Part shown: positions 5,519 through 42,317 of the stretch, piece after piece
How positions within the stretch are numbered: position 1 is the stretch's first letter
Layout: the number at the start of each line of letters is the position of its first letter
From: Candidatus Cloacimonadota bacterium
GTDB taxonomy: Bacteria > Cloacimonadota > Cloacimonadia > Cloacimonadales > TCS61
Reading direction: 5' to 3'
NCBI GenBank assembly: GCA_030445745.1
Contig: JASUTE010000014.1
Span: 1 to 42,582 of the forward strand
DNA length: 42,582 nt
Translations under genes and position numbers: made by a program
The notes under the pieces: generated by a model
Told to the model about the DNA's origin: nothing
What the model saw: only the letters and a program-made list of their open reading frames with translations
Database searches by the model: none

Positions 5519-6997
5519 ATGAGAGTTATAGTTGTACTAAGCTTTTTATTATTTATATCTCCCCTATTTGCTCAAGTGGATTTTGAGTATCAATACGATA
5601 TAAATTATCCCACAGACGATTCAAAGTTATGTAATATGCAGATGTATGATGTAAATAATGACGATGAGGAAGATATTGTTCTATTTTTTACTGATTACAG
5701 TGATGATCTACTAATGCTGAGTTACCAAACCAATGGGGATTTTATTTGTGAAAGAGTGCTTTCTGGTGAAAGTTTCTATCCTGAAAAGGGGTTAGTACAG
5801 GAATATGATGACGAATTAATTATAATTGGTTCTTTTACAGAAGAATACGAAATCATGACCAAAGTCTGCGATTTTGAAACCGGCTCTGTAATAGATTCCC
5901 TCATAATTGATCATGGCGGTACCACTTGGGATCTATTTCCTAATCAAATAAGCGAATTAAAAGTATACCATCACGATAATGATTTGATTCTAATGCTTGG
6001 TTTTGATAACACTTCTGGTATTATTGTTTATGAAACCAAAACCATCCGCATGACCTATGATGGCAGCCTATCTTTCGACCAGTTCTTTGAAGATATGGGC
6101 GAGGAAATAATTGATATCGATGATGCTGATGAATTATTCGTAAAGGGATATTATTATGGATTCTTCGAACAATTGTCCAACATAACTAGATATTTAAAAC
6201 TTATATCCAAATCAGATTACACTACCGTAACCGATTTCATGTCTGCTTCCGGAAGTTCAGGACCAAGCTATATCTCTCACTGGCCTGTTCAATTCGAAAT
6301 AGTTACCCAAAACGATAATAATTATTCGGATTACGGCTGGATGTTCTATAAAAATACCCATACTCAAAACGGCTATCATAACAAATTCATTAATTATGAC
6401 CCGAATAATTTTGAACAAACCTGGACTGTTGATTTCACAGAACCTGATTTAACCGGATTTTTTACTCCCACCTGTATCGAAGTTAACAACCAGCCCAATT
6501 ATGTAATGTATTTTCAAGAAAATTCTCTGGAAATTCGTAACCGGATAGATGGAAGTTTAGTACATGTGCAAGCTTCAGATATCTTACCAACAGATATCTT
6601 CAGAACTAGTTCTAATGAGCTTTTGTTCATTACAGATGATGACACTAACAATGTTATCAAGTTCTATAAACTCGAAAATGATATCTTTGTTGATGTTGAA
6701 GAGGACACCTTGCCAGAAAGTATTTCAAGTTTATCCAACTACCCCAATCCCTTCAATCCCAGCACAACCATTGAATTTTCGATCCAAAATAATTCCCAAA
6801 TCGAGCTAACAATCTACAACACCAAAGGCCAGAAAGTTAAAACTTTAGCAGATAATCAGTTCACGCCAGGGTCACATACAATCATCTGGAATGGTAAAGA
6901 TGAATCTGGGAAATCAGTAAGCTCTGGGATCTATTTTTATAAATTGCAGGTAAATGGCAAAGTAGAAGCTATGGAAAAATGCTTGCTGTTAAAATGA
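5519..6997 (+). CDS. secreted protein with C-terminal sorting tail
   Basis: The 492-residue product begins with a signal peptide ending near LFAQ (residue 19). The first part has an Asp-rich DVNNDDEED stretch (about residues 43-51), like an FG-GAP/VCBS calcium loop, and the body is probably a beta-rich propeller-like domain with no family I recognise. Residues about 405-492 form the sorting tail: YPNPFNPST, a TIYNTKGQ strand, WNGKDESGK, SGIYFYKL and a final CLLLK. Such tails are known in FCB bacteria as type IX-like secretion and anchoring signals. An AGGAGG ribosome binding site precedes the ATG. It is the only tail-bearing gene outside the 36-42 kb cluster. Surface location is inferred; function is unknown. 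Confidence 0.75.
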   Translation: MRVIVVLSFLLFISPLFAQVDFEYQYDINYPTDDSKLCNMQMYDVNNDDEEDIVLFFTDYSDDLLMLSYQTNGDFICERVLSGESFYPEKGLVQEYDDELIIIGSFTEEYEIMTKVCDFETGSVIDSLIIDHGGTTWDLFPNQISELKVYHHDNDLILMLGFDNTSGIIVYETKTIRMTYDGSLSFDQFFEDMGEEIIDIDDADELFVKGYYYGFFEQLSNITRYLKLISKSDYTTVTDFMSASGSSGPSYISHWPVQFEIVTQNDNNYSDYGWMFYKNTHTQNGYHNKFINYDPNNFEQTWTVDFTEPDLTGFFTPTCIEVNNQPNYVMYFQENSLEIRNRIDGSLVHVQASDILPTDIFRTSSNELLFITDDDTNNVIKFYKLENDIFVDVEEDTLPESISSLSNYPNPFNPSTTIEFSIQNNSQIELTIYNTKGQKVKTLADNQFTPGSHTIIWNGKDESGKSVSSGIYFYKLQVNGKVEAMEKCLLLK

Positions 6998-9067: not shown

Positions 9068-9541
9068 CTATTTTATTTCCTCTTTCAGTATCTCCAAAAC
9101 CTTATCGGCATGGCCTTGGGCTTTTACTTTATACATAGCTTTATAAATTTTGCCTTGTGGATCTATGATGAAGGTGCTGCGTACAGGGCCCATAACCTCT
9201 TTACCAAACATCTTTTTGGGTTGCCATACTCCATATTTCTGCATCACTTTGGTATCAGGGTCACTCAATAATTCTAAGTTCAGTTCTTGCTTGCTAATAA
9301 AATTCACGTGGCTTTTTACCGAATCTTTGCTAACACCAACCACTTGTACGCCCAATTTTTGGAACTCATCCACCAAGCAGGTGAAATCTTTGGCTTCTAA
9401 GGTACACCCGGGAGTGTTATCTTTCGGATAAAAATACAGCACTAACCATTTCCCTTTAAAATCACTTAACTTTACTTCTTCCCCATCCTGATTTTGCAAA
9501 GTAAACTCAGGTGCTTTATCATTTTGTTCTAATTTAGCCAT
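9068..9541 (-). CDS. bcp: thiol peroxidase, BCP/PrxQ family
   Basis: This 157-residue cytoplasmic peroxiredoxin is predicted to reduce hydrogen peroxide and organic peroxides using thioredoxin. It has the family start (KAPEFTLQNQDG), the FYPKDNTPGCT motif with the peroxidatic Cys46, and the conserved Arg in GPVRSTFIID. Length is normal. The second Cys usually five residues after the first is Lys here; another Cys is at 55. Resolution may therefore use Cys55 or an external thiol. A GGGAGG ribosome binding site precedes the ATG. The gene is divergent from murI across a 279-base gap that must hold both promoters. Confidence 0.93.
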   Translation of the reverse strand: MAKLEQNDKAPEFTLQNQDGEEVKLSDFKGKWLVLYFYPKDNTPGCTLEAKDFTCLVDEFQKLGVQVVGVSKDSVKSHVNFISKQELNLELLSDPDTKVMQKYGVWQPKKMFGKEVMGPVRSTFIIDPQGKIYKAMYKVKAQGHADKVLEILKEEIK

Positions 9542-28958: not shown

Positions 28959-29034
28959 GGCGGGATAGCTCAGACGGTAGAGCAGAGGCCTGAAAAGCCT
29001 TGTGTCCCCAGTTCGATTCTGGGTCCTGCCACCA
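28959..29034 (+). tRNA. tRNA-Phe (GAA)
   Basis: A 76-base cloverleaf with encoded CCA. Acceptor arms GGCGGGA and TCCTGCC pair with one G-T wobble. The D-arm is GCTC/GAGC, and the anticodon stem GAGGC/GCCTT carries loop CTGAAAA with anticodon GAA at 28992-28994. The T-arm is CCCAG/CTGGG with loop TTCGATT, and the discriminator base is A. A short T-run follows the CCA. Confidence 0.97.
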
Positions 29035-30702: not shown

Positions 30703-31533
30703 ATGGAAGAATATCTTGATAAGTTGGTAAAATCTGGTTTAACAGAAAATGAGGCTAAGGTTTATTGCTGTCTTTTGCAGAAGCAGTTATTCACAGCTAC
30801 CGAAATTTCTCGTTGTGCTTCAGTGAATCGCTCCCGGATCTATTCTGTGTTAGATTCCCTGCAAAAAAAAGGGTTATGCATAGAAAAATTGGGCAAAGTG
30901 CGTAAATTTGAAGCAGTAAACCCCGAGGTAGCTTTCGATAAACTAATTCAGCAACAAAACGCTAAAATTAATATGCTGAAAGACCTTTCCAAAACCCTAT
31001 CACCAGTCTACAATTCTCAGATGCAAAACTCTTCTCCTCTCGATTTTATCGAAGTTTATGGAACAGCCCCCAGTATTATAAAAAAACATCACTCATTGGA
31101 GCTGGCAGCCCAAGATTGCGTACTTTCTTTTTGCAAAGCACCTTATGCTATGAACCGTGATGAAGTCAAAATCCACGATTCGCAATGGCAAAGTATGCAA
31201 AAAGGTGTAACTTTTAAATCGATATACGAAGTGGAACCAGAAAACAAAGAATTCTTTGCTTATCGCATGCAGAAATATGTAGAGGGAGGAGAATATATTA
31301 AAGTGGCCTATCATCTTCCCATAAAATTACACATTTTCGATAATAATACCGTAATGTTCTCGATGATAAATAACCTGTCAGATTCCAAAAACCAATTAAC
31401 TTATATGGTTGTGGAACACAAAGACCTGGCCGAAGCTTTGGTTACTACTTTCTATACATATTGGGAAAATGCCATAACCGTGGCTGAGTTCAGAGAGAGG
31501 GAAAATATTAAGGAACGAAACTTGCACAAGTAG
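30703..31533 (+). CDS. TrmB-family transcriptional regulator
   Basis: The 276-residue product has an N-terminal winged helix (about residues 1-75): LVKSGLTENEAKVYCCLL, TATEISRCASVNRSRIYSVLDSLQKKGL, then the wing. This is the typical TrmB/sugar-regulator layout. A coiled linker (about 80-100) joins a phospholipase-D-like C-terminal domain (about 105-270) of the kind that in some members binds sugars. Four Cys lie in the N-terminal half and two close to position 140. It is directly upstream (31 bases) of the dsbD cluster on the same strand, so it is a candidate regulator of that cluster, by position only. Confidence 0.85.
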   Translation: MEEYLDKLVKSGLTENEAKVYCCLLQKQLFTATEISRCASVNRSRIYSVLDSLQKKGLCIEKLGKVRKFEAVNPEVAFDKLIQQQNAKINMLKDLSKTLSPVYNSQMQNSSPLDFIEVYGTAPSIIKKHHSLELAAQDCVLSFCKAPYAMNRDEVKIHDSQWQSMQKGVTFKSIYEVEPENKEFFAYRMQKYVEGGEYIKVAYHLPIKLHIFDNNTVMFSMINNLSDSKNQLTYMVVEHKDLAEALVTTFYTYWENAITVAEFRERENIKERNLHK

Positions 31534-31564
31534 TTGCTAATATCAAATATGCGAGGTAAAAGAG

Positions 31565-33244
31565 ATGGTTAAAAAGTATTTTGTGATAGCATTCCTAATA
31601 CTAATGGTATTTGTACCACAAATATTTGCTGAAGAAAGAGAGACTGTGACCGCTCGAGTTGAAGATGGCAAGATTCTGGTAACATATTCCATTCCAGAAG
31701 GTTATCATCAAACACTTCAGGAAGATTATTTCTATATTGATGTAGAACCATACCCCGGATTACAATTTTCAGATACAATTTATCCGGAAGGTCACCTCGA
31801 TGCTGACGGCAACACTGAATACAAAGGTAACACCACTCTGGTTAAAAAGTTTACAGTTACCGGTGGATTTGAACCTGGTCAGATAACAATTTATGCTGGC
31901 TATCAGTTTTGTGAAGATAGCGGAGCCTGTTTATTTCCAGAAGAAAAAGAGATAAACCTTGCTATAGATGAAACAGCGCTACCGGCTGCTGAACCAAAAC
32001 CAGCGACCAGTTTTCCCAAAACTTTACAATACTTATTAATGGCTTTTTTAGGTGGAATTATTCTGAACGTGATGCCCTGTGTGCTGCCTGTACTTTCTAT
32101 TAAAGCGATGAGCTTGGTAAAGCAAAGTCAGCAAGATAGAAAGCATATATTCCAAGGCAGTATGGCCTATACTCTGGGAATTTTATTCTCTTTTATAGTT
32201 CTAGCAGCTATTATTATAATTTTAAAAACAACTGGCGAAAGTGTGGGTTGGGGCTTCCAATTCCAAAGTCCCGGATTTGTGATGGCACTACTCATAGTTA
32301 TTTTCGTGTTCGCACTCTCACTCTTTGATGTTTTTATAATTCGAGCACCCGGCATGCAAGTAGCCACTAAAGCTTCCAGCAAAGGTGGGCTTACCGGATC
32401 ATTTCTTAGTGGAATCTTTGCCGTATTGCTTGCTACACCTTGCACTGCCCCACTTTTGGGCGCAGCCTTGGGTTTTGCTTTCTCGCAACCACCACTTATG
32501 ATCTTAGCTATATTCCTACTTATCGGCCTGGGTTTAGCATTTCCGTTTATTATTATAGGAATTTGGCCTAAAGCTATTAGAATCATCCCCAAACCAGGTG
32601 AATGGATGAACATATTTAAAGAGGTTATGGGCTTCTTATTACTCGCAACAGCTTTCTATTTAATACGCTCACTCTACTTTTTGGTTGGAGGAAAAGAGCT
32701 GCTCTCGGTTCTGGTATATCTGCTTATTTTGGCTTTTGCTGCTTGGATTTACGGTCGTTTTGCCAAGCCAGAGTTTAGTAAAACCAAGCAATGGATAGCT
32801 ACTATCTTGGCAATTGTTATAGCTGTAGGTGGAGGATTTTTAACCTTAGATTTTTCGGAAGAAAACATTACAGCCAGTTTGGAAGAAGAATCACATCTAC
32901 GCCCCGGTTGGGAAAAATTCTCACCCGAATTGTTGCAAAAGTATCGAGAAGCTGGGCAACCTGTATTCATAGATTTTGGGGCTGAATGGTGTTTAACCTG
33001 TAAAACCAATGAAACAACTGTTCTTTTCACCGAAGATATCGAAACCGCTTTCCAAGAAAAGGGGATAAAACTTTTAAAAGGTGATAATACCAAGAAAAAT
33101 CCAGTTATAGGTGAATGGCTCTCCCGATTTAACCGTGCTGGCGTTCCCTTGTATATTTTTTATCTACCAGGACAAGAAGAACCGATTGTTCTTCCCGAGT
33201 TAATTACCAAAGATATGATCTATAATATTTTAGAAAAATTATAA
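31565..33244 (+). CDS. dsbD: thiol:disulfide interchange protein DsbD
   Basis: This inner-membrane reductant conduit takes electrons from cytoplasmic thioredoxin to periplasmic thiol proteins. The 559-residue protein has a signal peptide (about 1-22). An N-terminal periplasmic domain carries Cys116 and Cys122. Eight hydrophobic helices (about 152-430) hold the paired Cys172 (NVMPCVLP) and Cys293 (LATPCTAP). A C-terminal thioredoxin domain has WCLTC (Cys476, Cys479). All six functional cysteines expected for DsbD are present. It heads the redox cluster, 12 bases before the CxxC lipoprotein. Likely acceptors are the TlpA-like, lipoprotein and Omp28-like thioredoxins downstream. Confidence 0.95.
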   Translation: MVKKYFVIAFLILMVFVPQIFAEERETVTARVEDGKILVTYSIPEGYHQTLQEDYFYIDVEPYPGLQFSDTIYPEGHLDADGNTEYKGNTTLVKKFTVTGGFEPGQITIYAGYQFCEDSGACLFPEEKEINLAIDETALPAAEPKPATSFPKTLQYLLMAFLGGIILNVMPCVLPVLSIKAMSLVKQSQQDRKHIFQGSMAYTLGILFSFIVLAAIIIILKTTGESVGWGFQFQSPGFVMALLIVIFVFALSLFDVFIIRAPGMQVATKASSKGGLTGSFLSGIFAVLLATPCTAPLLGAALGFAFSQPPLMILAIFLLIGLGLAFPFIIIGIWPKAIRIIPKPGEWMNIFKEVMGFLLLATAFYLIRSLYFLVGGKELLSVLVYLLILAFAAWIYGRFAKPEFSKTKQWIATILAIVIAVGGGFLTLDFSEENITASLEEESHLRPGWEKFSPELLQKYREAGQPVFIDFGAEWCLTCKTNETTVLFTEDIETAFQEKGIKLLKGDNTKKNPVIGEWLSRFNRAGVPLYIFYLPGQEEPIVLPELITKDMIYNILEKL

Positions 33245-33256
33245 ATGGAGTAGAGA

Positions 33257-34657
33257 ATGAGAAAGTTATTGCTGTTTTTTATCGTAACCTTGCTGTTAAT
33301 GATTGGTTGCGACAGATTCGACAACACTTTTGAATCTGATGACACTAATGAACCGGAAGAGATTAGTTTGGCAGAATACTTTGTAAACTTTAATGATAGC
33401 TTACAGATAATTGAAACTGATAATTTAGAACCCATTATGGCATTTTACCCTGCCAATTACCTGAATAGTGGCAGCACTTCCGAAACTGTACTCGAGTTTT
33501 ATACAGATTTACTAAACACTGGGTACAATAATATTTCCGCCACTCTATTGGCAAACTCTAACCACAAAGTGCAATGGCAGCTTTTAGCAACCGATGCTGC
33601 CGATAAGGCAGTAGTAGATTCCACAATCGTGGATGTGGTTAATTCCACCAATACTGCTTTTATCGGAAATCAATCGCTGGTTAGTTTTGCGGACTACGTT
33701 AGCAACTTTAGCAATACCCTGAGAACTGCACTTGTTTCCAATAATATTAATTTAGTTATGTCCTATTACGCTGAAGAATACAATAACAATGGCATGGACA
33801 AAGCAGCCATGCGTATTTACTACAATTCACTGGCAGCCGTTACCACTTCCAACCTGCTGGTAACAGTTAACTATGCCAAACCTTACGAAAATGAATTTTC
33901 CTATTGGATCTACGATGAAGACGGCGTAATTAATGCCAATAATATCGATTATGCTGAAGCAGTTCCAGATAGTTTTCTTATCACTGGTTCGCAGATAGGT
34001 GGCGAAAACAACAATACCCAAAAAGTATTGGTAGAGCTAGGAACTGGCATCTGGTGTTCCAACTGCCCCTATGCTGAAGCTGCTTTACATATTTTAAAAG
34101 AAGAACTCGGCGACCAATTCTATTATATTGAATACCATATAAACGATGTGCTGCAAGTTGACGGCAACCTGGAAATCTTAAGTTACTACGGCGATACTAC
34201 TCTACCAATAGCTAAATTCCAGGGACAAACTACGCTTTCCCATAACCAGGAAGCTACCGTGGATTATTACCGCAATGCTTTGAATATTTACCTAGCACAG
34301 GAAGCAAAAGCATTTTTAACAAATCAGAGTGTTAGCATGAGCGAAGATATTCTTACCGGAGAAGTAGATATTAGCTTGGAAGACATAGAAACAACTAATC
34401 TTTTCCTAAAATACTCTTTGGTAGAAAAAGAATCGGATAAAACTAATTTTGCCGGCGAAAACTGCTTACAGGTAGTTTTGGCAAATGGTTCTATGAGTTT
34501 GGAAAACGCTGACTTGACCCAGCCAGTAACCTACAACTTAGATCTGCCCGCTTACCTGCCGGAAGACATCGTGCTCTACCTATGGTTACAAACTTTAGAT
34601 GAACCCTATGATGAAGAGACTTGCAAAGTGCATAATATAATAGAAGTTAATTTATAA
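33257..34657 (+). CDS. lipoprotein with duplicated N-terminal domain and CxxC thioredoxin-like domain
   Basis: The 466-residue product has a lipoprotein signal with MIGC (Cys18). Residues about 36-115 and 140-230 are two divergent copies of one domain, each built around a FxNxL start, a long helix, PANY/AEEY and a second helix (EFYTDLL/IYYNSL). From about residue 255 an Omp28-like thioredoxin-fold domain follows, with WCSNC (Cys267, Cys270), LHILKEELG and a likely cis-Pro in TTLPIAKF. It is probably anchored in the periplasm-facing leaflet or on the outer membrane. A GGAG site precedes the ATG. It lies between dsbD and the TlpA-like gene. The duplicated domain was not recognised. Confidence 0.75.
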   Translation: MRKLLLFFIVTLLLMIGCDRFDNTFESDDTNEPEEISLAEYFVNFNDSLQIIETDNLEPIMAFYPANYLNSGSTSETVLEFYTDLLNTGYNNISATLLANSNHKVQWQLLATDAADKAVVDSTIVDVVNSTNTAFIGNQSLVSFADYVSNFSNTLRTALVSNNINLVMSYYAEEYNNNGMDKAAMRIYYNSLAAVTTSNLLVTVNYAKPYENEFSYWIYDEDGVINANNIDYAEAVPDSFLITGSQIGGENNNTQKVLVELGTGIWCSNCPYAEAALHILKEELGDQFYYIEYHINDVLQVDGNLEILSYYGDTTLPIAKFQGQTTLSHNQEATVDYYRNALNIYLAQEAKAFLTNQSVSMSEDILTGEVDISLEDIETTNLFLKYSLVEKESDKTNFAGENCLQVVLANGSMSLENADLTQPVTYNLDLPAYLPEDIVLYLWLQTLDEPYDEETCKVHNIIEVNL

Positions 34658-34668
34658 AGGAGTTTAGG

Positions 34669-35184
34669 ATGAAAAAAATATTGATAGTTTTAGCCCTAGT
34701 AATGGCAGTAAGTTTATTTGCAGAAGATGTCTTTCCTAATTTTAGTTTGGAAAATATAAAAGGCGACAAAATAGATTTGGAAGATTATCTGGTTGATGGC
34801 GAATTGGTGATTATAGATTTTTGGGCTACTTGGTGTAAACCTTGCATGAAAGAACTGCCGGAGCTGGATAAAATAGATAAAGAATACGACAAAGTAACCG
34901 TTATTGCCATCTCTAGCGACCGTCCTCGCCATGTAAACAAAGTAAAACGTGTCATACGTTCCAAAAATTTCGGGTTCATAACCCTATTGGACTCCGATAA
35001 AAAGTTACAACGCGAACTTAACCTAAAAACTGTACCACGTACCATAATTATTGACAGCCAGCGCCAGATCCTATACGATCACTCAGGTTTCAAAATTGGT
35101 GATGAAGTTGAATTGAAGAAAAAATTAGATTCATTCCTGCAACCACAAACCGAAAAAGAGATACAGCAGGAGACAGAACTATGA
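34669..35184 (+). CDS. TlpA/ResA-like periplasmic thioredoxin
   Basis: The 171-residue product has a signal peptide (about 1-18) and a thioredoxin domain. PNFSLENIKGDKIDLEDYL leads to VIIDFWATWCKPC (Cys56, Cys59), then ELPELDKI and the cis-Pro in LKTVPRTIIID. It is expected to reduce disulfides in periplasmic partners with electrons from DsbD. A GGAG site precedes the ATG. Its stop overlaps the next gene by four bases (ATGA). Confidence 0.93.
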   Translation: MKKILIVLALVMAVSLFAEDVFPNFSLENIKGDKIDLEDYLVDGELVIIDFWATWCKPCMKELPELDKIDKEYDKVTVIAISSDRPRHVNKVKRVIRSKNFGFITLLDSDKKLQRELNLKTVPRTIIIDSQRQILYDHSGFKIGDEVELKKKLDSFLQPQTEKEIQQETEL

Positions 35185-36617
35185 AGCAAATAGCCGTTGC
35201 AATCCTGATATTGATATTGGCTAGCAGCTTGGCAGCTGAGCTAAACATTAATGGTGGAAACGACATTGAATATGTTTATAAAGCAGCCGAGGACAGTTTG
35301 AACCACTTTTTCAAAGATGAATTCAGTTTTAGAATGAACTACGATAAATTTTCTTTTGGTATGAAATTTATTGCTGAGCTACCGAAATATGACGATTTTC
35401 AGAAAGTACAATATTTGAATAATGATGATATAAGTTACCGTTGGGATGAAAGATATTTGGAATATGAAACTGATGCTCTTTATCTACGCGGCGGTAATTT
35501 TGAAGAAAACTTCGGTTCTGGCATCATCTTACGCGCTTACCAAGATAAAGATTTCGACATTGATACACGCCTGGAAGGTGGCCTGGCAAAATATGATTCC
35601 AAACTATTTAAACTTACTGCTCTTTATGGCACTTTAACTAGCGAGAACCGACCAGATAAGAATAATTTGGCCTACGGACTAGATTTGGAAACCGATATTA
35701 TAGATAATCTGCAATTAGCAGGTTCGGCTGTTTCCTATCGCAACATTTACGATGTAGGTAATCGATACAGCACTACCAATGTGCTGGGTGGCCGCCTTAG
35801 CTACTATCATGACTGGTTTGATGTGTATGCTGAAGCTGCCAATCTGCAAGAAGAAGATGCTGAATTTGCTGCTGAAGACGGCTATGCTTATTATTCCAAC
35901 CTGAATACCTATTTTAACAACTTCAGCCTTTCTGCTGGCTACAAAAACTACAAAGATTTCGATTTCAGGATGAACGACCTGCCAACTTTAAACCATAGTG
36001 GAGAACCAATTTCGGAAAACTTAGATAGCGGTTACGATGAAATCGGATTTATGGGCGAATTCAGATATAATCCCAACTACGATAACGAGCTTATCTTAAA
36101 TTATTCGGAAGCCTGGAATGAAGATGATACTATTCAATTAAGCAATTTCTATGCTGAATATCGTAGAGATTTTGCCACCTGGAGTATTACAGCCAGCTAT
36201 GAACAAATCGAGAAGTTAGAAGAACCGATCTCGCTTTGGAATAAAGAAATGAAACCCAGCTTGATGGCTGAGCTTACCCTTTATGAAAAACCAGTTTACC
36301 TTAAATTTGAATATAAAATAAATGATGAAAAACATGGTAATGATGAAAAAAACTACTACGAACCATTGCTGCAAACAGATTTCGAAATTGGCAGCATTGG
36401 AATCTCGCTAATATCTCAATTCAAGTATGAAGAGTTAAACAAGATTACCGATAACGAAGCCTGGCTAGGTGCTGAAGTAGTTAAAGATATAAATGACGAC
36501 AGTCAACTGAAGATCTTCTTAGGAAAAGAAAAGGGTGGTAAAATATGCCGCAATGGCACCTGCCGCTATCAGTCAGCTTTCAAAGGAGTAAGATTGGAAT
36601 TGACAACTAATTTCTAG
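35181..36617 (+). CDS. outer-membrane beta-barrel-like protein (DUF6029-like)
   Basis: The 478-residue product has a signal peptide (about 1-19) followed by many alternating strands. NGGNDIEYVYK opens it, and an N-terminal part near residues 75-130 (LEYETDALYLRGGNFEENFGSG) resembles the plug/strand region of large barrels. It ends KGGKICRNGTCRY, then GVRLELTTNF with a terminal aromatic. The CxxxxC pair lies at about 457-462. This ending is typical of an uncharacterised barrel family in Bacteroidetes (DUF6029-like, from memory). It is translationally coupled to the TlpA-like gene, so it may be a surface or secretion partner of the thioredoxins. Role not known. Confidence 0.7.
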   Translation: MKQIAVAILILILASSLAAELNINGGNDIEYVYKAAEDSLNHFFKDEFSFRMNYDKFSFGMKFIAELPKYDDFQKVQYLNNDDISYRWDERYLEYETDALYLRGGNFEENFGSGIILRAYQDKDFDIDTRLEGGLAKYDSKLFKLTALYGTLTSENRPDKNNLAYGLDLETDIIDNLQLAGSAVSYRNIYDVGNRYSTTNVLGGRLSYYHDWFDVYAEAANLQEEDAEFAAEDGYAYYSNLNTYFNNFSLSAGYKNYKDFDFRMNDLPTLNHSGEPISENLDSGYDEIGFMGEFRYNPNYDNELILNYSEAWNEDDTIQLSNFYAEYRRDFATWSITASYEQIEKLEEPISLWNKEMKPSLMAELTLYEKPVYLKFEYKINDEKHGNDEKNYYEPLLQTDFEIGSIGISLISQFKYEELNKITDNEAWLGAEVVKDINDDSQLKIFLGKEKGGKICRNGTCRYQSAFKGVRLELTTNF

Positions 36618-36652
36618 CAAAATTAAATATAATTTGATTTGAGGAGGAGATC

Positions 36653-37372
36653 ATGAAAAGATTTGGGGGTATTTTTATTTTAGTTCTGTTCAGCAGCTTA
36701 TTGCTGGCAGACTTAAGTGTTAATGTGCCTTTCGATAGTAATATCGTAGGGCCTGCCTATGCCGATGAAGGCAACTATACTTTTACAAGTGAACAGTTTT
36801 ATGTAATTAATAATGGCCAGACAGCTATATTTACCTTAGATACAGAAACGGAAAATCTACCAGCAGGCTGGTCGCTTACCTGGTGCCACGAATTAGAAGG
36901 TGTGCCTGGTTGTCATTTTGGAGAGTGGGAATTTGAATTTCCTGCTGGTGCCGAGTTAGGCCTGGATGCAGTGATTCAGGTAGCTTCTGCCGGTAGTTTC
37001 GATTTTAGTTTTGTTTTCGAATCGGAAAGTTTAACTGAACCAGTTACGATAGATTTCAGCTTTGCTACTGCCGATGCTGCTTCCAACGATGAAAATCCAA
37101 CACCGACATCTCTTAGTTTAACTAACTTCCCCAATCCGTTCAATCCGCAAACTACTATACTGTTAAACAGTGGTATGCAAACAGCAGACCTTACTATATT
37201 CAATACGAAAGGCCAAATAGTGAAAACCTTTAAACAGCTCCCACCTGGCCAAAACAGTATTGTTTGGAATGGCACAAACAACAGTGGAAAATCAGTACCC
37301 AGTGGAATTTACTTTTCTAAACTAGAAACTGAAAATAAAATTATAACCACCAAAATGCTGCTATTAAAATGA
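36653..37372 (+). CDS. secreted Ig-like protein with sorting tail
   Basis: The 239-residue product has a signal peptide (about 1-19), then an Ig-like domain (about 25-145) with two cysteines 10 residues apart (WCHELEGVPGC), and the sorting tail at 156-239 (NFPNPFNPQT, IFNTKGQ, WNGTNNSGK, SGIYF, KMLLLK). The central domain resembles the middle region of the next gene product, so it looks like a version that lacks the thioredoxin domain. A strong GAGGAGG site precedes the ATG. Its stop overlaps the next gene by four bases. Probably exported to the surface; function unknown. Confidence 0.72.
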   Translation: MKRFGGIFILVLFSSLLLADLSVNVPFDSNIVGPAYADEGNYTFTSEQFYVINNGQTAIFTLDTETENLPAGWSLTWCHELEGVPGCHFGEWEFEFPAGAELGLDAVIQVASAGSFDFSFVFESESLTEPVTIDFSFATADAASNDENPTPTSLSLTNFPNPFNPQTTILLNSGMQTADLTIFNTKGQIVKTFKQLPPGQNSIVWNGTNNSGKSVPSGIYFSKLETENKIITTKMLLLK

Positions 37373-38700
37373 AACGCTTTCTGTTAGCCTTTTTACTTTT
37401 GCTACTTAGTGGAGCTCTTTTCGCTGAACTGCAAGGGTATCCTAAAACCATAATCGCCGAAGATTTCACGGCGGGGTGCGCTAATTGTACCGATAGCTAC
37501 TCCGGTCTGGATGTAGTTCATAGTCAATACGATAGAACAGAGTTCAATAGTGTGCGATATTATCCGTTAGCACATCCGTTGGGAAATGCAGAAACCAATG
37601 CAATGTTTGAGTTATACGATGTAAGTTATACGCCTTATGTTTTCTTCAACGGTATCATCGAATATGGTGGTGGAGGTAGTGTGGTTGCTTCCGGAGAACC
37701 ATATTTGGAAATAATGCAGCAGCTTTACTTTCAGGAATCTCCCATAAAGTTGGTAATAGACAGCTTTAATGCCACAACAGGCGATATTCAAGTGACTGTA
37801 GATATGCTGTCTCCTAACTATACTTTAGAAAATAAGACGATTAAATTTTTATTATTGGAAGATAATGTAATTTCCTCTGAAACTCATGTAACTCGCGACA
37901 TCATAAAAGACAACATATCCCTGCAAGGCCAGGGCAATACAGCTTTTTTCCAAAACACTTTCAAAACTAACGATGAATGGGTAACCGAAAACTTACAGGC
38001 TGTTGCTTTTGTGCAGGTTAACGGACTGGAGATAATTCAATCTGCATCTACTTATCCCACCCCGCAGTACAAAGTTCGTGGCTGGGTACCTTTCCCACTG
38101 CAACAAACCAGTGGAGTTAGTGGTAGTTACAACAGTGAAGATTTCGCGGTTGTGAATTTTGGCGATAACTTAGATATTACAGCTGAGCTTATTGTAGATT
38201 CAGCACCAGCAAACTGGCAGATATTTTTAGCTGATGATCAGAACACCTATACCGAGCCCGTTACATTTAATTTGGCAGCTAATGAGCATAAGAATTTTTA
38301 TTATTTGGTAGAGAGCACTAATTCTGGGAGTGCTGAATTTCATTTGCAAATTACTTCTAATGTTCTAGACGAACCTTACCAAATACCTTTCACCTTTGCA
38401 GTTAATACAGCTAACCAAGAGGAAACTGTTCCTGCTATTTCAAAAACCTACAACTTTCCCAACCCGTTCAATCCCTCTACCAGTATTTTCTGGGAAGGAT
38501 TTTCCCAAAACGAATCGGTGCAAGTGCAAATTTTTAATAGTAAAGGTCAAATTATTCGCAGTTTTACCAATATCGAAAATAACTATATAGAATGGAATGG
38601 TAAAGATAACCAAGATAACATTGTTAATAGCGGAATCTATTTTTACAAAGTAAGTTCAAAAGATAAAAGCAAGTATGGCAAAATGCTGCTACTTAAATAA
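37369..38700 (+). CDS. Omp28-like CxxC surface protein with sorting tail
   Basis: The 443-residue product has a signal peptide (about 1-20), then an Omp28-type thioredoxin-fold domain: EDFTAGCANC (Cys37, Cys40), RYYPLAHP, then SYTPYVFFNG with the cis-Pro position. An Ig-like domain (about 235-345) shares its pattern with the preceding protein. The sorting tail is at 360-443 (NFPNPFNPST to KMLLLK). It is probably a surface-displayed redox-active or thiol-binding protein. The start overlaps the previous stop as ATGA, so expression is coupled. Confidence 0.78.
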   Translation: MKRFLLAFLLLLLSGALFAELQGYPKTIIAEDFTAGCANCTDSYSGLDVVHSQYDRTEFNSVRYYPLAHPLGNAETNAMFELYDVSYTPYVFFNGIIEYGGGGSVVASGEPYLEIMQQLYFQESPIKLVIDSFNATTGDIQVTVDMLSPNYTLENKTIKFLLLEDNVISSETHVTRDIIKDNISLQGQGNTAFFQNTFKTNDEWVTENLQAVAFVQVNGLEIIQSASTYPTPQYKVRGWVPFPLQQTSGVSGSYNSEDFAVVNFGDNLDITAELIVDSAPANWQIFLADDQNTYTEPVTFNLAANEHKNFYYLVESTNSGSAEFHLQITSNVLDEPYQIPFTFAVNTANQEETVPAISKTYNFPNPFNPSTSIFWEGFSQNESVQVQIFNSKGQIIRSFTNIENNYIEWNGKDNQDNIVNSGIYFYKVSSKDKSKYGKMLLLK

Positions 38701-38709
38701 GAGGTAAAG

Positions 38710-39981
38710 ATGAAAAGATTTATCTGGATAGGAATATTATTATTTATTATAAGCTTTCTACAAGCTGGCCAAAGGTATGTTCTGGGGGAACTTTTCTCCT
38801 TAGAGGACTGCCCCTCTTGCGTACCCGCGCGGTCGGCGTGGCAAGATATGATAACAGCAGATGACACCCAATTTTTTATTCCCTTAATGTGGCAACTAAC
38901 CGGGCCACATCAGTCACCTGGTGCAAATACACGTTTTTATATGTATTCAGAACAAGGCTATACTCCCCATGCGGAATTTAGTGGTATACTGCACGTAATT
39001 GGCTCGGGTGGTGCTTACTATCATTATCATCAGAATTACGAGCAAATAGCAGCTATGGACAGCCCTATCGAGATGAACCTGCAACCCAGATTCACAGGAG
39101 ATTATCAATTGGAACTTACCTGTGAAGTAACTGCGACAGATGAGATTGAACCTGGTGATTACCGCATTATGTATGTGATAACTTATTACGATGGCTCCAG
39201 CTACAATTCCTCTGTATTCGTAAAAACTACTGCCAATAGCATTGAATTGCCCGATGTTGACGAAACTGTTGAATATACAACTGAACTGGAATTCATTCAT
39301 ACCTTTACTCTTGATCAGCTGAAAGCAGTAGCTTTTGTGCAGAACTGGGATGATTATTCGGTTTTGCAGGCTACTCAAACCGATTTTCTGAATATTATCT
39401 ATCCGCTTTCCTGTCAAACTTTAGATTTTGGCGAAGTAGAAACCGGTGAAACAGCCAGTATGAACTTTATAATAACCAATAATTGGAACTATGAATTGCA
39501 AGGCGATATCTATTCAATCCCAAATTTCCAGGTTGAATCCAACTATTCTGTTCCACCCTTTTCCCAACAAGAAGTAACCATTAACTTCTGTGCCACAGAA
39601 ACAGGAACTTATAGTGGAGATATTATTCTAACCTCGAACGACCCTCAATTTCCAACTTTATTCCTAAGCGTTTCGGCAAATGTTATAAATACGAATAATA
39701 ACCAAGAAACTGTACCTAATGTAAAGCTTTTGGGAAACTATCCCAATCCGTTTAATCCGGAGACCAAGATCGAATTCCAATTAAACAACCAAGCAGATGC
39801 ACAAATAGTTATTTACAACCTAAAGGGTGAAAAGATAAGAACCTTTTCCAATTTGGAAGGTAAAAACGAAATAATTTGGAACGGAACCGATCAGCAGGGC
39901 AATAGAATTGCCTCTGGAATCTATTTGTATAAGATAGCAGGCTCAGATAATTCCCCGCGGAAGATGATTCTGCTAAAATAG
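38710..39981 (+). CDS. Omp28-like CxxC surface protein with HYDIN-like Ig domain and sorting tail
   Basis: The 423-residue product has a signal peptide (about 1-20), an Omp28-like domain with CPSC (Cys34, Cys37) and the family pattern FIPLMWQ...SPG then GYTPHAEFSG, an Ig domain of the ASPM/HYDIN type (about 232-335: LDFGEVETGE, TSNDPQFPT), and the sorting tail (340-423) ending KMILLK. It is a clear paralogue of the following gene product in its first 130 residues. It lies 10 bases after the previous gene; same strand and probably the same transcript. Confidence 0.78.
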   Translation: MKRFIWIGILLFIISFLQAGQRYVLGELFSLEDCPSCVPARSAWQDMITADDTQFFIPLMWQLTGPHQSPGANTRFYMYSEQGYTPHAEFSGILHVIGSGGAYYHYHQNYEQIAAMDSPIEMNLQPRFTGDYQLELTCEVTATDEIEPGDYRIMYVITYYDGSSYNSSVFVKTTANSIELPDVDETVEYTTELEFIHTFTLDQLKAVAFVQNWDDYSVLQATQTDFLNIIYPLSCQTLDFGEVETGETASMNFIITNNWNYELQGDIYSIPNFQVESNYSVPPFSQQEVTINFCATETGTYSGDIILTSNDPQFPTLFLSVSANVINTNNNQETVPNVKLLGNYPNPFNPETKIEFQLNNQADAQIVIYNLKGEKIRTFSNLEGKNEIIWNGTDQQGNRIASGIYLYKIAGSDNSPRKMILLK

Positions 39982-40017
39982 GCTAAATTAAGAAAATTAA
40001 CTGAGGAGGAAGATCGT

Positions 40018-42261
40018 ATGAAACGTTTTTATGCGTTTTTGTTTGTACTTCTCTTCATATTACCCGTTTTTGCTTCGCAAACCTGGGTGGTGGGAGAAGT
40101 ATTCACCGAATCATGGTGCTCATTTTGTCCAGCAGCTCGGTCTGGGTTGCATCAACTAGCAGATAACGATGAAGAGGCTCCCTTCTTCATTCCGCTTATC
40201 TGGCAAGGTGACTCTGAATATCAGAGCCCTAATTATGGCGGCAGAGGAAGTTTATATGGTGTAAGCGGTATTCCCCATTCACAATGGCAAGGTTATTTGG
40301 ATGATGTAGGCGGCGGAGACGCTTATCCCCGCTATCTCAGTCACTATCAGAACATTGTTCAAAACGACAGCCCCGCTACAATAGATATCGATTTAAACGT
40401 AAATGGTTCTAATCAGCTGGAAATTACAGCAGATGTTGAGCTAACTGGCGATATTACTACTACCAACAACAAGATATGCTACATTCTTACCTATGACCTT
40501 ACCGGAGTAGAAGAGCCAGATTATTTTGCCTCAGTTACCAACTATGAAGATGAAGATTTCATGTTAACCAATGCAGGCGAAACCGGCATGTATTCAGCAG
40601 CTTTTCCGCTAGATAGCAGCTGGGAATTGCCTAAAGTGAAAGCTGTTGTTTTAATTCAAACATTCGCTGGCGACCATTACATTCACCAGGCAGCAACAAC
40701 CGGTTTTACTGGCACACTGGCGCTATTTTCGGCCAATGTAACCAGCGGACCTGCTCAGTTAGGTGTTCGATTTAACGATATGTCGCTTCCTACTGGTGAA
40801 ATAGACAGCTGGGAATGGGATTTGGATGGTGATGGCGAAGTAGACAGCACCGAAGAAAACCCATATTTCCTATATGAAACACCTGGTACTTATGATGTTT
40901 CTTTAACCATAACAAAAGACGACGAAACAGATACTATGTTAGCTGAAGAGATGATAACAGTTACCGAAGGAGACGAAATATCAGGAAGTCTGTCAGGTAT
41001 ATGGGTGGCAGAATACAGCCCCTACACTATTGTGGAAGATGTCACTATCGATCAGGGTGCTATGCTGCAAATTGAACCCGGTGTAACTATAAATGTAGAA
41101 AATGAAGCTGAGTTTTATATTTATGGAAGTTTGCAGGCCAATGGCAGTGATGAAGAAAAAGACGAGATCGTATTCACTACCGCATCTACTTGGAACGGAT
41201 TACGTTTTCTGAATAACATGAACGATAATATCATAAACAATTGTGATATCAGTGGCTCTATAAGTGCGGCTATCAAAGCCAATGCTTCCAAGCTGGAAGT
41301 ACTGAATTCTACCCTACACCACAACAATGCTATTTCCACTGGAGCCGCCATTCACATTACCGATTCCGATGATGTAGTTCTTTTCAACAATATTATAGCC
41401 AACAACAATGGCTCCAACCTTAGTGGGGCTATTAGTTTAAATAACGCCAGTCCACTAATTATAAATAATGTCATCGTGAACAATACTTCCAATATGACAG
41501 GTGCAATCAGCATGAAACAAGGTTCTGATGCTACCTTGATTAACAACACAATTGCCAACAACCTGGCCAATAACTCCATGATCTTTCTCTTCAACTCCAT
41601 GCCAGTGTTGAAAAATAACATTCTGCGCGATAACAACAATGTTTTCACTTTAATCAGCAGTGCACCTACCATTTCCTACAGCAATATTAGCGGTGGTAAT
41701 GAAGGAATGGGCAATATTGATGAAGATCCTATGTTCGAAGCGCCCACAGAAGGCGATGGTGATGAATATGATGGTTTGAATGCCCAGTGGAATCTGCTGG
41801 AAGGTTCGCCTTGTATTGATGCTGGCGACCCGGCAGCAGAATACTACGATTTGGAAGACCCGCAAAATCCGGGACAACCACTATGGCCAGCTATGGGAAC
41901 ACTTACCAATGATATGGGAGCTTACGGAGGACACAATTACCAAAATTACGTTCCCAACCAAGATCCACAGGTAACACCTATTACAGCCAATCCAATCAAG
42001 GTCTATCCCAATCCGTTCAATCCTAGCACTAATATCAGCTTCAGTTTACAAAATGCTGCTGTAGCAACAGTGAACATTTACAATCTGAAGGGACAATTGG
42101 TGAAAACTCTGGTTCATAATCAAACTCTGCCAGCTGGCGACCACACTTTAGCTTGGCATGGCAATACAGATGCAGGAGAAAATGCTGCGAGTGGAATTTA
42201 CTTTGTGAAATTACAAACTAAAAGCAACACTTCTACGCAGAAGATGCTATTATTGAAATAA
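40018..42261 (+). CDS. Omp28-like CxxC surface protein with PKD, beta-helix and sorting tail
   Basis: The 747-residue product joins five parts. They are a signal peptide (about 1-20), an Omp28-like domain with WCSFC (Cys34, Cys37) and FIPLIWQ...SPN then GIPHSQWQG, a PKD domain (about 245-320: WEWDLDGDGEVDSTEENP, TYDVSLTI), a right-handed beta-helix-like region (about 350-610, rich in NN and NNxI turns), and the sorting tail (660-747) ending KMLLLK. Beta-helix regions often bind or cut polysaccharides, but no catalytic motif is obvious. A strong GAGGAGG site precedes the ATG. It is the last gene of the cluster and is followed by a terminator. Confidence 0.8.
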   Translation: MKRFYAFLFVLLFILPVFASQTWVVGEVFTESWCSFCPAARSGLHQLADNDEEAPFFIPLIWQGDSEYQSPNYGGRGSLYGVSGIPHSQWQGYLDDVGGGDAYPRYLSHYQNIVQNDSPATIDIDLNVNGSNQLEITADVELTGDITTTNNKICYILTYDLTGVEEPDYFASVTNYEDEDFMLTNAGETGMYSAAFPLDSSWELPKVKAVVLIQTFAGDHYIHQAATTGFTGTLALFSANVTSGPAQLGVRFNDMSLPTGEIDSWEWDLDGDGEVDSTEENPYFLYETPGTYDVSLTITKDDETDTMLAEEMITVTEGDEISGSLSGIWVAEYSPYTIVEDVTIDQGAMLQIEPGVTINVENEAEFYIYGSLQANGSDEEKDEIVFTTASTWNGLRFLNNMNDNIINNCDISGSISAAIKANASKLEVLNSTLHHNNAISTGAAIHITDSDDVVLFNNIIANNNGSNLSGAISLNNASPLIINNVIVNNTSNMTGAISMKQGSDATLINNTIANNLANNSMIFLFNSMPVLKNNILRDNNNVFTLISSAPTISYSNISGGNEGMGNIDEDPMFEAPTEGDGDEYDGLNAQWNLLEGSPCIDAGDPAAEYYDLEDPQNPGQPLWPAMGTLTNDMGAYGGHNYQNYVPNQDPQVTPITANPIKVYPNPFNPSTNISFSLQNAAVATVNIYNLKGQLVKTLVHNQTLPAGDHTLAWHGNTDAGENAASGIYFVKLQTKSNTSTQKMLLLK

Positions 42262-42286
42262 ACTAAACAAGTTACAATTAAATACA

Positions 42287-42317
42287 GGCGGAGAAGCAAT
42301 TCTCCGCCTATTTTTTT
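42287..42317 (+). terminator. rho-independent terminator ending the redox cluster
   Basis: GGCGGAGAA (42287-42295) pairs perfectly with TTCTCCGCC (42300-42308) across a GCAA tetraloop, followed by TA and seven T residues. It closes the operon 25 bases after the last stop. Confidence 0.93.

Follow-up and report, generated by a model that had tools for sequence, protein, structure and literature searches.

DsbD sends electrons outward across the inner membrane, where TlpA accepts them, and DsbD-TlpA pairs classically serve protein maturation. The known DsbD-fed pathways (DsbD-DsbC, DsbD-CcmG/TlpA and ScsB) terminate in the periplasm, and electron export over the outer membrane is mostly known via cytochromes. 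Here we describe an operon of a Candidatus Cloacimonadota bacterium (assembly GCA_030445745.1, contig JASUTE010000014.1, of which positions 1 to 42,582 were analysed and are called the window) in which the genes for DsbD, a lipoprotein and TlpA are followed by those for an outer-membrane barrel of the DUF6029 family and for thioredoxin-fold proteins with sorting tails of the type IX secretion system (T9SS). With modest confidence, we lean towards reading this cluster as an outward-facing thiol-reducing relay.

The closest described surface protein is HBP35 of Porphyromonas gingivalis, which T9SS exports to the surface; it catalyses the reduction of insulin disulfides, needs its two cysteines to do so and has a thioredoxin domain whose role is described as unknown (PMC2907840). 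The Omp28-type surface proteins encoded in the window (the cargo) share its T9SS export, its N-terminal thioredoxin fold with CxxC and the beta-sandwich that follows; HBP35 differs in using cysteine and not the selenocysteine (Sec) of some relatives, and it is described without a DsbD, a TlpA or a barrel as partner (PMC2907840). The original prediction took DsbD with surface thioredoxin cargo to be undescribed, which needs qualifying: T9SS display of a thioredoxin was already known from HBP35, and what is new is that a barrel links such display to DsbD. The DsbD-fed pathways share with this operon the alpha C-x5-C, the transmembrane part, the gamma WCxxC and a TlpA/ResA acceptor. The operon departs from them in coupling that acceptor to an outer-membrane barrel, to which some species fuse it, with T9SS surface proteins following, and in belonging to a genome (99.3% complete) in which searches for cytochrome-c assembly (PF01578), DsbB and VKOR found none. 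As a working analogy, MtrCAB of Shewanella likewise pairs a large barrel with one redox protein in the periplasm and one at the surface; the proteins here are unrelated to it, with thioredoxin folds, cysteines and Sec in place of haem and cytochromes and no cytochrome family match in the operon. Extracellular disulfides are reduced in Shewanella through the Mtr cytochromes, DsbD acting indirectly (PMC10986466). The NCBIfam selenoprotein family NF045500 (Omp28-related selenoprotein) has the same domain type, whereas the window and its relatives score far under its cut-off (64 and 45 vs 200 bits) and the family is a name without a pathway. For DUF6029, a role in polysaccharide secretion has been suggested by similarity, in a paper that puts forward no redox role (PMC9603273). 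A search of the open-access literature found no paper on such a system under DUF6029, Omp28/T9SS selenoproteins or Cloacimonadota selenocysteine, nor a report of T9SS-displayed selenoproteins, for which the relatives' proteins are candidates. Each part is of a known kind, and the assembly that links DsbD via a barrel to surface thioredoxins did not turn up in that literature.

In the proposed relay, electrons would be drawn from the cytoplasm by DsbD, or in some relatives by a membrane ferredoxin of the NapH/MauN type accompanied by a separate DsbD-alpha-like protein, and would reduce the extracytoplasmic thioredoxins, TlpA and an Omp28-type lipoprotein. TlpA, physically fused to the barrel in some species, would act docked at its periplasmic mouth, and reducing equivalents would pass via the barrel and its outward CRxGxC loop to T9SS-displayed thioredoxin-fold proteins of Omp28 or ResA type. 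Outside the cell, these would reduce what are most probably disulfides or sulfur compounds within the polymeric material on which these anaerobes feed, with Sec serving at the surface catalytic position in many relatives. Such an operon would let a largely uncultured phylum reduce outside material. A testable role for DUF6029 follows.

Gene linkage and a probable TlpA-barrel unit

The nine same-strand genes of the original prediction, from a TrmB-type regulator to a terminator, were recovered as open reading frames (ORFs) with the families proposed (Table 1). They lie on the plus strand between 30703 and 42261, with 36 nt as the largest gap and 4-nt overlaps at two junctions (tlpA/barrel and small tail gene/first Omp28-like gene), and run into the only strong plus-strand terminator-like site found from 30703 on.

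Absence of conserved linkage in relatives had been set beforehand as the refuting outcome; both order and content proved to be kept across the phylum. The sample joined 31 neighbourhoods from relatives with 70 loci of named genomes, each of these 70 from Cloacimonadota, into 79 distinct barrel-centred loci; upstream genes were counted over the 54 loci with at least 4.5 kb upstream of the barrel, and downstream genes over the 58 with at least 3 kb past it. The exact order DsbD-lipoprotein-TlpA-barrel occurs in 47 of the 54. Of the single genes, TlpA precedes the barrel in 54/54 loci, the lipoprotein in 52/54 and DsbD, counting matches to the full DsbD profile only, in 50/54. The next gene past the barrel carries a T9SS tail in 53/58 loci, and an Omp28-type gene with such a tail follows in 44/58. 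TrmB stands upstream in just 11/54 and is a lineage-specific addition outside the conserved core. The barrel was found in 105 of 125 genomes of the phylum and in 66 of the 71 good ones, nearly always as a single gene. The contig scan that gave the 70 loci, made with a single CRxGxC-derived pattern, returned no DUF6029 locus outside Cloacimonadota, which does not imply that the linkage is absent from Bacteroidota, and plasmids and viral contigs yielded no DUF6029 relatives.

Within the window genome, the sole DsbD and four of the five Omp28-type domains (the four strong ones) sit in the operon. T9SS tails alone carry little weight, because this genome has 67 tail matches overall; at the relatives' loci, CxxC or UxxC is present in 44/62 Omp28-type T9SS-tail proteins vs 1/35 other T9SS-tail proteins. 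The grouping of these genes is more than chance. That they are envelope genes which merely lie together without joint function has nothing in its favour beyond co-location in one genome, is contradicted by the linkage counts, with their phylum-wide order, and by gene fusion, and is hardly credible.

The fusion unites TlpA and the DUF6029 barrel in one open frame of 647-662 amino acids in five species of four genera. A signal peptide comes first, followed by the TlpA domain with its WCxPC, a short linker and the full barrel, with Pfam matches to both parts. Given the N-terminal thioredoxin and a standard barrel topology, the fused thioredoxin is expected at the periplasmic mouth. No other single line of evidence speaks as strongly for TlpA and the barrel acting as a unit. 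The separate TlpA of the window has an AhpC-TSA/Redoxin domain with the CxPC site, and the motif [WYF]CxPC recurs in nearly all of its relatives.

The barrel scores 86.5 bits against the PF19494 cut-off of 27. Its AlphaFold2 model, built from 51 aligned sequences, has a predicted local distance difference test (pLDDT) value of 92.9 and about 24 strands by our count. Odd-numbered connections average 10.7 residues vs 2.7 for even-numbered ones (p 0.0003), a difference that matches extracellular loops vs periplasmic turns. The CRxGxC motif is invariant in 51/51 aligned barrels, the conservation of its loop (0.80) is the highest among all loops, and the model predicts that this loop faces outside. 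Matches in the PDB are generic large barrels only, e.g. ushers. The usher lumen lets folded domains of about thioredoxin size through. A tentative extension of the relay is that TlpA and DUF6029 form a haem-free outer-membrane conduit, in which the thioredoxin would enter or seal the barrel and thiol-disulfide exchange to the CRxGxC loop would recharge the surface thioredoxins and selenoproteins; a barrel that conducts thiol electrons would be categorically new. If true, this conduit would be the thiol/selenol equivalent of the porin-cytochrome conduits and, with DsbD or a membrane ferredoxin as exchangeable input, would offer a strict anaerobe a route free of cytochromes for reducing disulfides or sulfur outside the cell. 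In one relative (L055, genome G029), the barrel frame is broken by one TAA into ORFs of 128 and 319 amino acids, through decay or assembly error.

Electron input and a possible role in periplasmic maturation

The DsbD of the operon comprises an alpha C-x5-C (CEDSGAC), the transmembrane domain and a gamma WCLTC. It reaches 85 bits for DsbD_TM (PF02683, cut-off 27.1) and 187.7 vs 330 bits for the NCBIfam subfamily NF001419, which makes it DsbD-type but outside the curated subfamily. Among 27 aligned relatives, a set picked for having the alpha cysteine pair, the pair never varies. With cytochrome-c assembly, DsbB and VKOR all missing, the usual reasons for keeping DsbD are weakened. Four loci (L045, L046, L048 and L056) carry, in place of DsbD, a DsbD-alpha-like protein encoded on its own, a membrane 4Fe-4S protein of the NapH/MauN type and an additional TlpA, and L044 has DsbD and the NapH/MauN-type set together. 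A selenocysteine tRNA (tRNA-Sec) gene lies between the TlpA-barrel fusion and the NapH-type set in L045, L046 and L048. That the inner-membrane electron source is exchangeable while the lipoprotein-TlpA-barrel core behind it stays constant agrees with outward reduction.

The same genes could instead perform periplasmic housekeeping, in which DsbD, TlpA and the lipoprotein would see to it that cysteines in the barrel and in T9SS clients are reduced or properly paired ahead of export, and the surface thioredoxin domains would then act without being recharged from the cell. The classical place of DsbD-TlpA pairs in protein maturation agrees with this, as does the presence in every partner of cysteine pairs that need right pairing. 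The original prediction gave seven of the eight structural genes such pairs; the barrel C-x4-C and the small protein's C-x8-C bring the count to 8/8, and the five CxxC proteins with thioredoxin-type domains that it listed besides DsbD were all recovered. However, a genome without DsbB, VKOR or cytochrome-c assembly leaves little oxidative folding to correct, the fusion of TlpA to an outer-membrane barrel goes unexplained, and a catalytic Sec in exported proteins would turn over just once. We consider housekeeping unlikely.

Predicted surface thioredoxins, selenocysteine and the proposed relay

Four operon proteins end in T9SS type A sorting domains (33.8-46.4 bits, cut-off 23), and the T9SS translocon SprA has a gene in the window genome (502 bits); the four are predicted to be T9SS cargo located at the surface. 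The original assignment of three of them as Omp28-like does not reach the gathering score of Omp28 PF11551 (23.9 vs 34.9 bits) and is upheld by structure: the domain of the third protein is modelled (pLDDT 93.5) as a thioredoxin fold followed by a beta-sandwich, and its best PDB match is HBP35 (5y1a; Foldseek E 9e-12, TM 0.74). The lipoprotein, which has CDRF after its signal, carries a domain of the same family as the cargo (183.7 bits). In the fourth tail protein, the small one, a C-x8-C pair is invariant (27/27). Homology of its immunoglobulin (Ig)-like Cys domain to DsbD alpha, with which it shares a similar CxxxGxC motif, was rejected (hhalign probability 6%).

Surface proteins at a large barrel may also point to nutrient uptake, in which the barrel would import a metal, haem, a sulfur compound or an oligomer, the surface proteins would bind the ligand, as HBP35 does haem, and TlpA would reduce or release it at the mouth. 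In size the barrel matches transport barrels, TlpA at its mouth would suit an importer too, and HBP35, the nearest solved cargo fold, is required for growth without haemin (PMC2907840). Yet the haem site of HBP35 lies outside the thioredoxin motif, the operon families include no TonB-type plug or SusD partner, and among the residues conserved in the cargo are the active-site Cys/Sec and the thioredoxin cis-Pro position, not a ligand pocket, so that uptake appears rather improbable.

In the relatives' cargo, UxxC arises by an in-frame TGA where the window has CxxC, e.g. GEVFTETWUGYCPDAR vs GEVFTESWCSFCPAAR in the window, and the site aligns with the CSFC of the third Omp28-type protein. The TGA occupies the first position of CxxC in many species, with the signal peptide conserved upstream; the Omp28-type Sec set comprises 12 genes. 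Another family with T9SS tails, ResA-like and encoded near the operon (AhpC-TSA in 11/12 members), reads FWGGTGUGGC, and 25 of 26 full-length ResA-type cargo matches in relatives contain exactly one TGA. The hairpin 3' of the TGA in the Omp28 Sec set has a covariation of 0.283, above all 500 shuffles (mean 0.130), and against synonymous-codon shuffles the mean z is -2.16 in both Sec sets vs -0.70 in 32 Cys homologues (p ~0.003). One hairpin register of the selenocysteine insertion sequence (SECIS) type fits about 8/12 Omp28-Sec genes, the others appearing register-shifted as judged by eye. tRNA-Sec scored above cut-off in 43/59 genomes, including that of the window, whose own genes have no in-frame TGA and Cys at all sites despite it. 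In one family (f10), none of seven sampled genomes had tRNA-Sec above cut-off, and the cargos use Cys. Three genomes have TGA-bearing cargo but no tRNA-Sec over the cut-off (G010, 92% complete; G015 and G026, 61-67%). By in-frame TGA, SECIS-type hairpin and tRNA-Sec, the relatives' TGA-bearing cargo are probably selenoproteins, and Sec at the first-Cys position speaks for a catalytic surface site.

A plain ORF caller cuts these genes short, as would be expected if the TGA codons were true stops and the genes pseudogenes or assembly errors. This is very improbable in view of where the TGA falls in many species, the signal peptide kept upstream, hairpins that exceed those of Cys homologues and covary above every shuffle, tRNA-Sec in most genomes and the single TGA of the ResA-type matches. 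The Cys cargo genes of L033, L036, L039 and L043 have hairpins as strong as Sec genes (z below -3), possibly SECIS relics after a Sec-to-Cys change, and the L047 Omp28-type cargo would, if its TGA is read, have adjacent C and U (GCUGMDA) rather than UxxC.

The sequences show the order of the genes, the fusion, the Sec sites and their SECIS-type hairpins, the sorting tails and the domain identities; the direction of flow, the passage of electrons across the barrel and the nature of the final acceptor are inferred. The path to the cell surface drawn in the original prediction gains from the TlpA-barrel fusions, the predicted extracellular Cys loop and Sec in surface proteins, localisation and electron flow being its conjectural part. 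Several points weigh against the relay. Redox state, localisation and electron transfer are all deductions; the structures were predicted as monomers, and the reach of TlpA to the CRxGxC loop is beyond monomer models. The lipoprotein may lie at the inner membrane, in the outer leaflet or at the surface. Moreover, about 18/62 distinct T9SS-tailed Omp28-type genes have no CxxC/UxxC match, and so some cargo is not catalytic. The first cargo gene past the barrel often has no CxxC/UxxC while its fold signal persists, which suggests a binding or scaffold role.

Operon layout and neighbouring features

Table 1. Features of the operon in the window (plain positions) and at loci of relatives (positions prefixed by the locus)
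Feature	Position	Strand	Details
TrmB-type helix-turn-helix regulator	30703-31533	+	PF01978 6e-17
DsbD	31565-33244	+	PF02683 5.9e-24; Thioredoxin_7 2.9e-15
DsbD alpha motif	31910-31930		CEDSGAC
DsbD gamma CxxC	32990-33001		in WCLTC
Lipoprotein	33257-34657	+	C-terminal Omp28-type thioredoxin-fold domain; weak similarity to Omp28 lipoproteins, NF033782 6e-5
Lipoprotein CxxC	34055-34066		CSNC
TlpA/ResA-like periplasmic thioredoxin	34669-35184	+	PF00578 9e-22
TlpA CxxC	34834-34845		CKPC
DUF6029 outer-membrane barrel	35181-36617	+	PF19494 2e-24
Barrel CRxGxC	36546-36563	+	CRNGTC; last predicted extracellular loop; only conserved barrel cysteines
Small protein	36653-37372	+	Ig-like domain and T9SS tail; TIGR04183 36.6 bits
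Small protein Cys pair	36884-36913		C-x8-C
Small protein T9SS tail	37127-37357		
Omp28-type thioredoxin-fold protein 1	37369-38700	+	CANC 37477-37488; T9SS tail 38455-38685
Omp28-type thioredoxin-fold protein 2	38710-39981	+	CPSC 38809-38820; Ig-like domain; T9SS tail 39739-39969
Omp28-type thioredoxin-fold protein 3	40018-42261	+	CSFC 40117-40128; PKD and beta-helix domains; T9SS tail 42001-42246
Intrinsic terminator	42286-42309	+	operon end; 10 pairs, then ATTTTTTT
TlpA-barrel fusion	L045:3793-5718		
TlpA-barrel fusion	L046:8071-10002		
TlpA-barrel fusion	L048:6879-8810		
TlpA-barrel fusion	L044:13541-15469		
TlpA-barrel fusion	L106		
NapH/MauN-type set	L056:11582-13624		replaces DsbD
NapH/MauN-type set	L044:10443-12433		beside DsbD
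tRNA-Sec gene	L045:6461-6555		
tRNA-Sec gene	L046:10737-10831		
tRNA-Sec gene	L048:6646-6740		

Promoter-like sites across the operon were no more frequent than in shuffles, and none stood out as a promoter. The sole match in an Rfam search of the operon was a tRNA upstream, at 28959-29031. Elsewhere in the window, another T9SS-tail protein, without CxxC, is encoded at 5519-6997, and a Bcp-type peroxiredoxin, unlinked to the operon, lies on the minus strand at 9068-9541.

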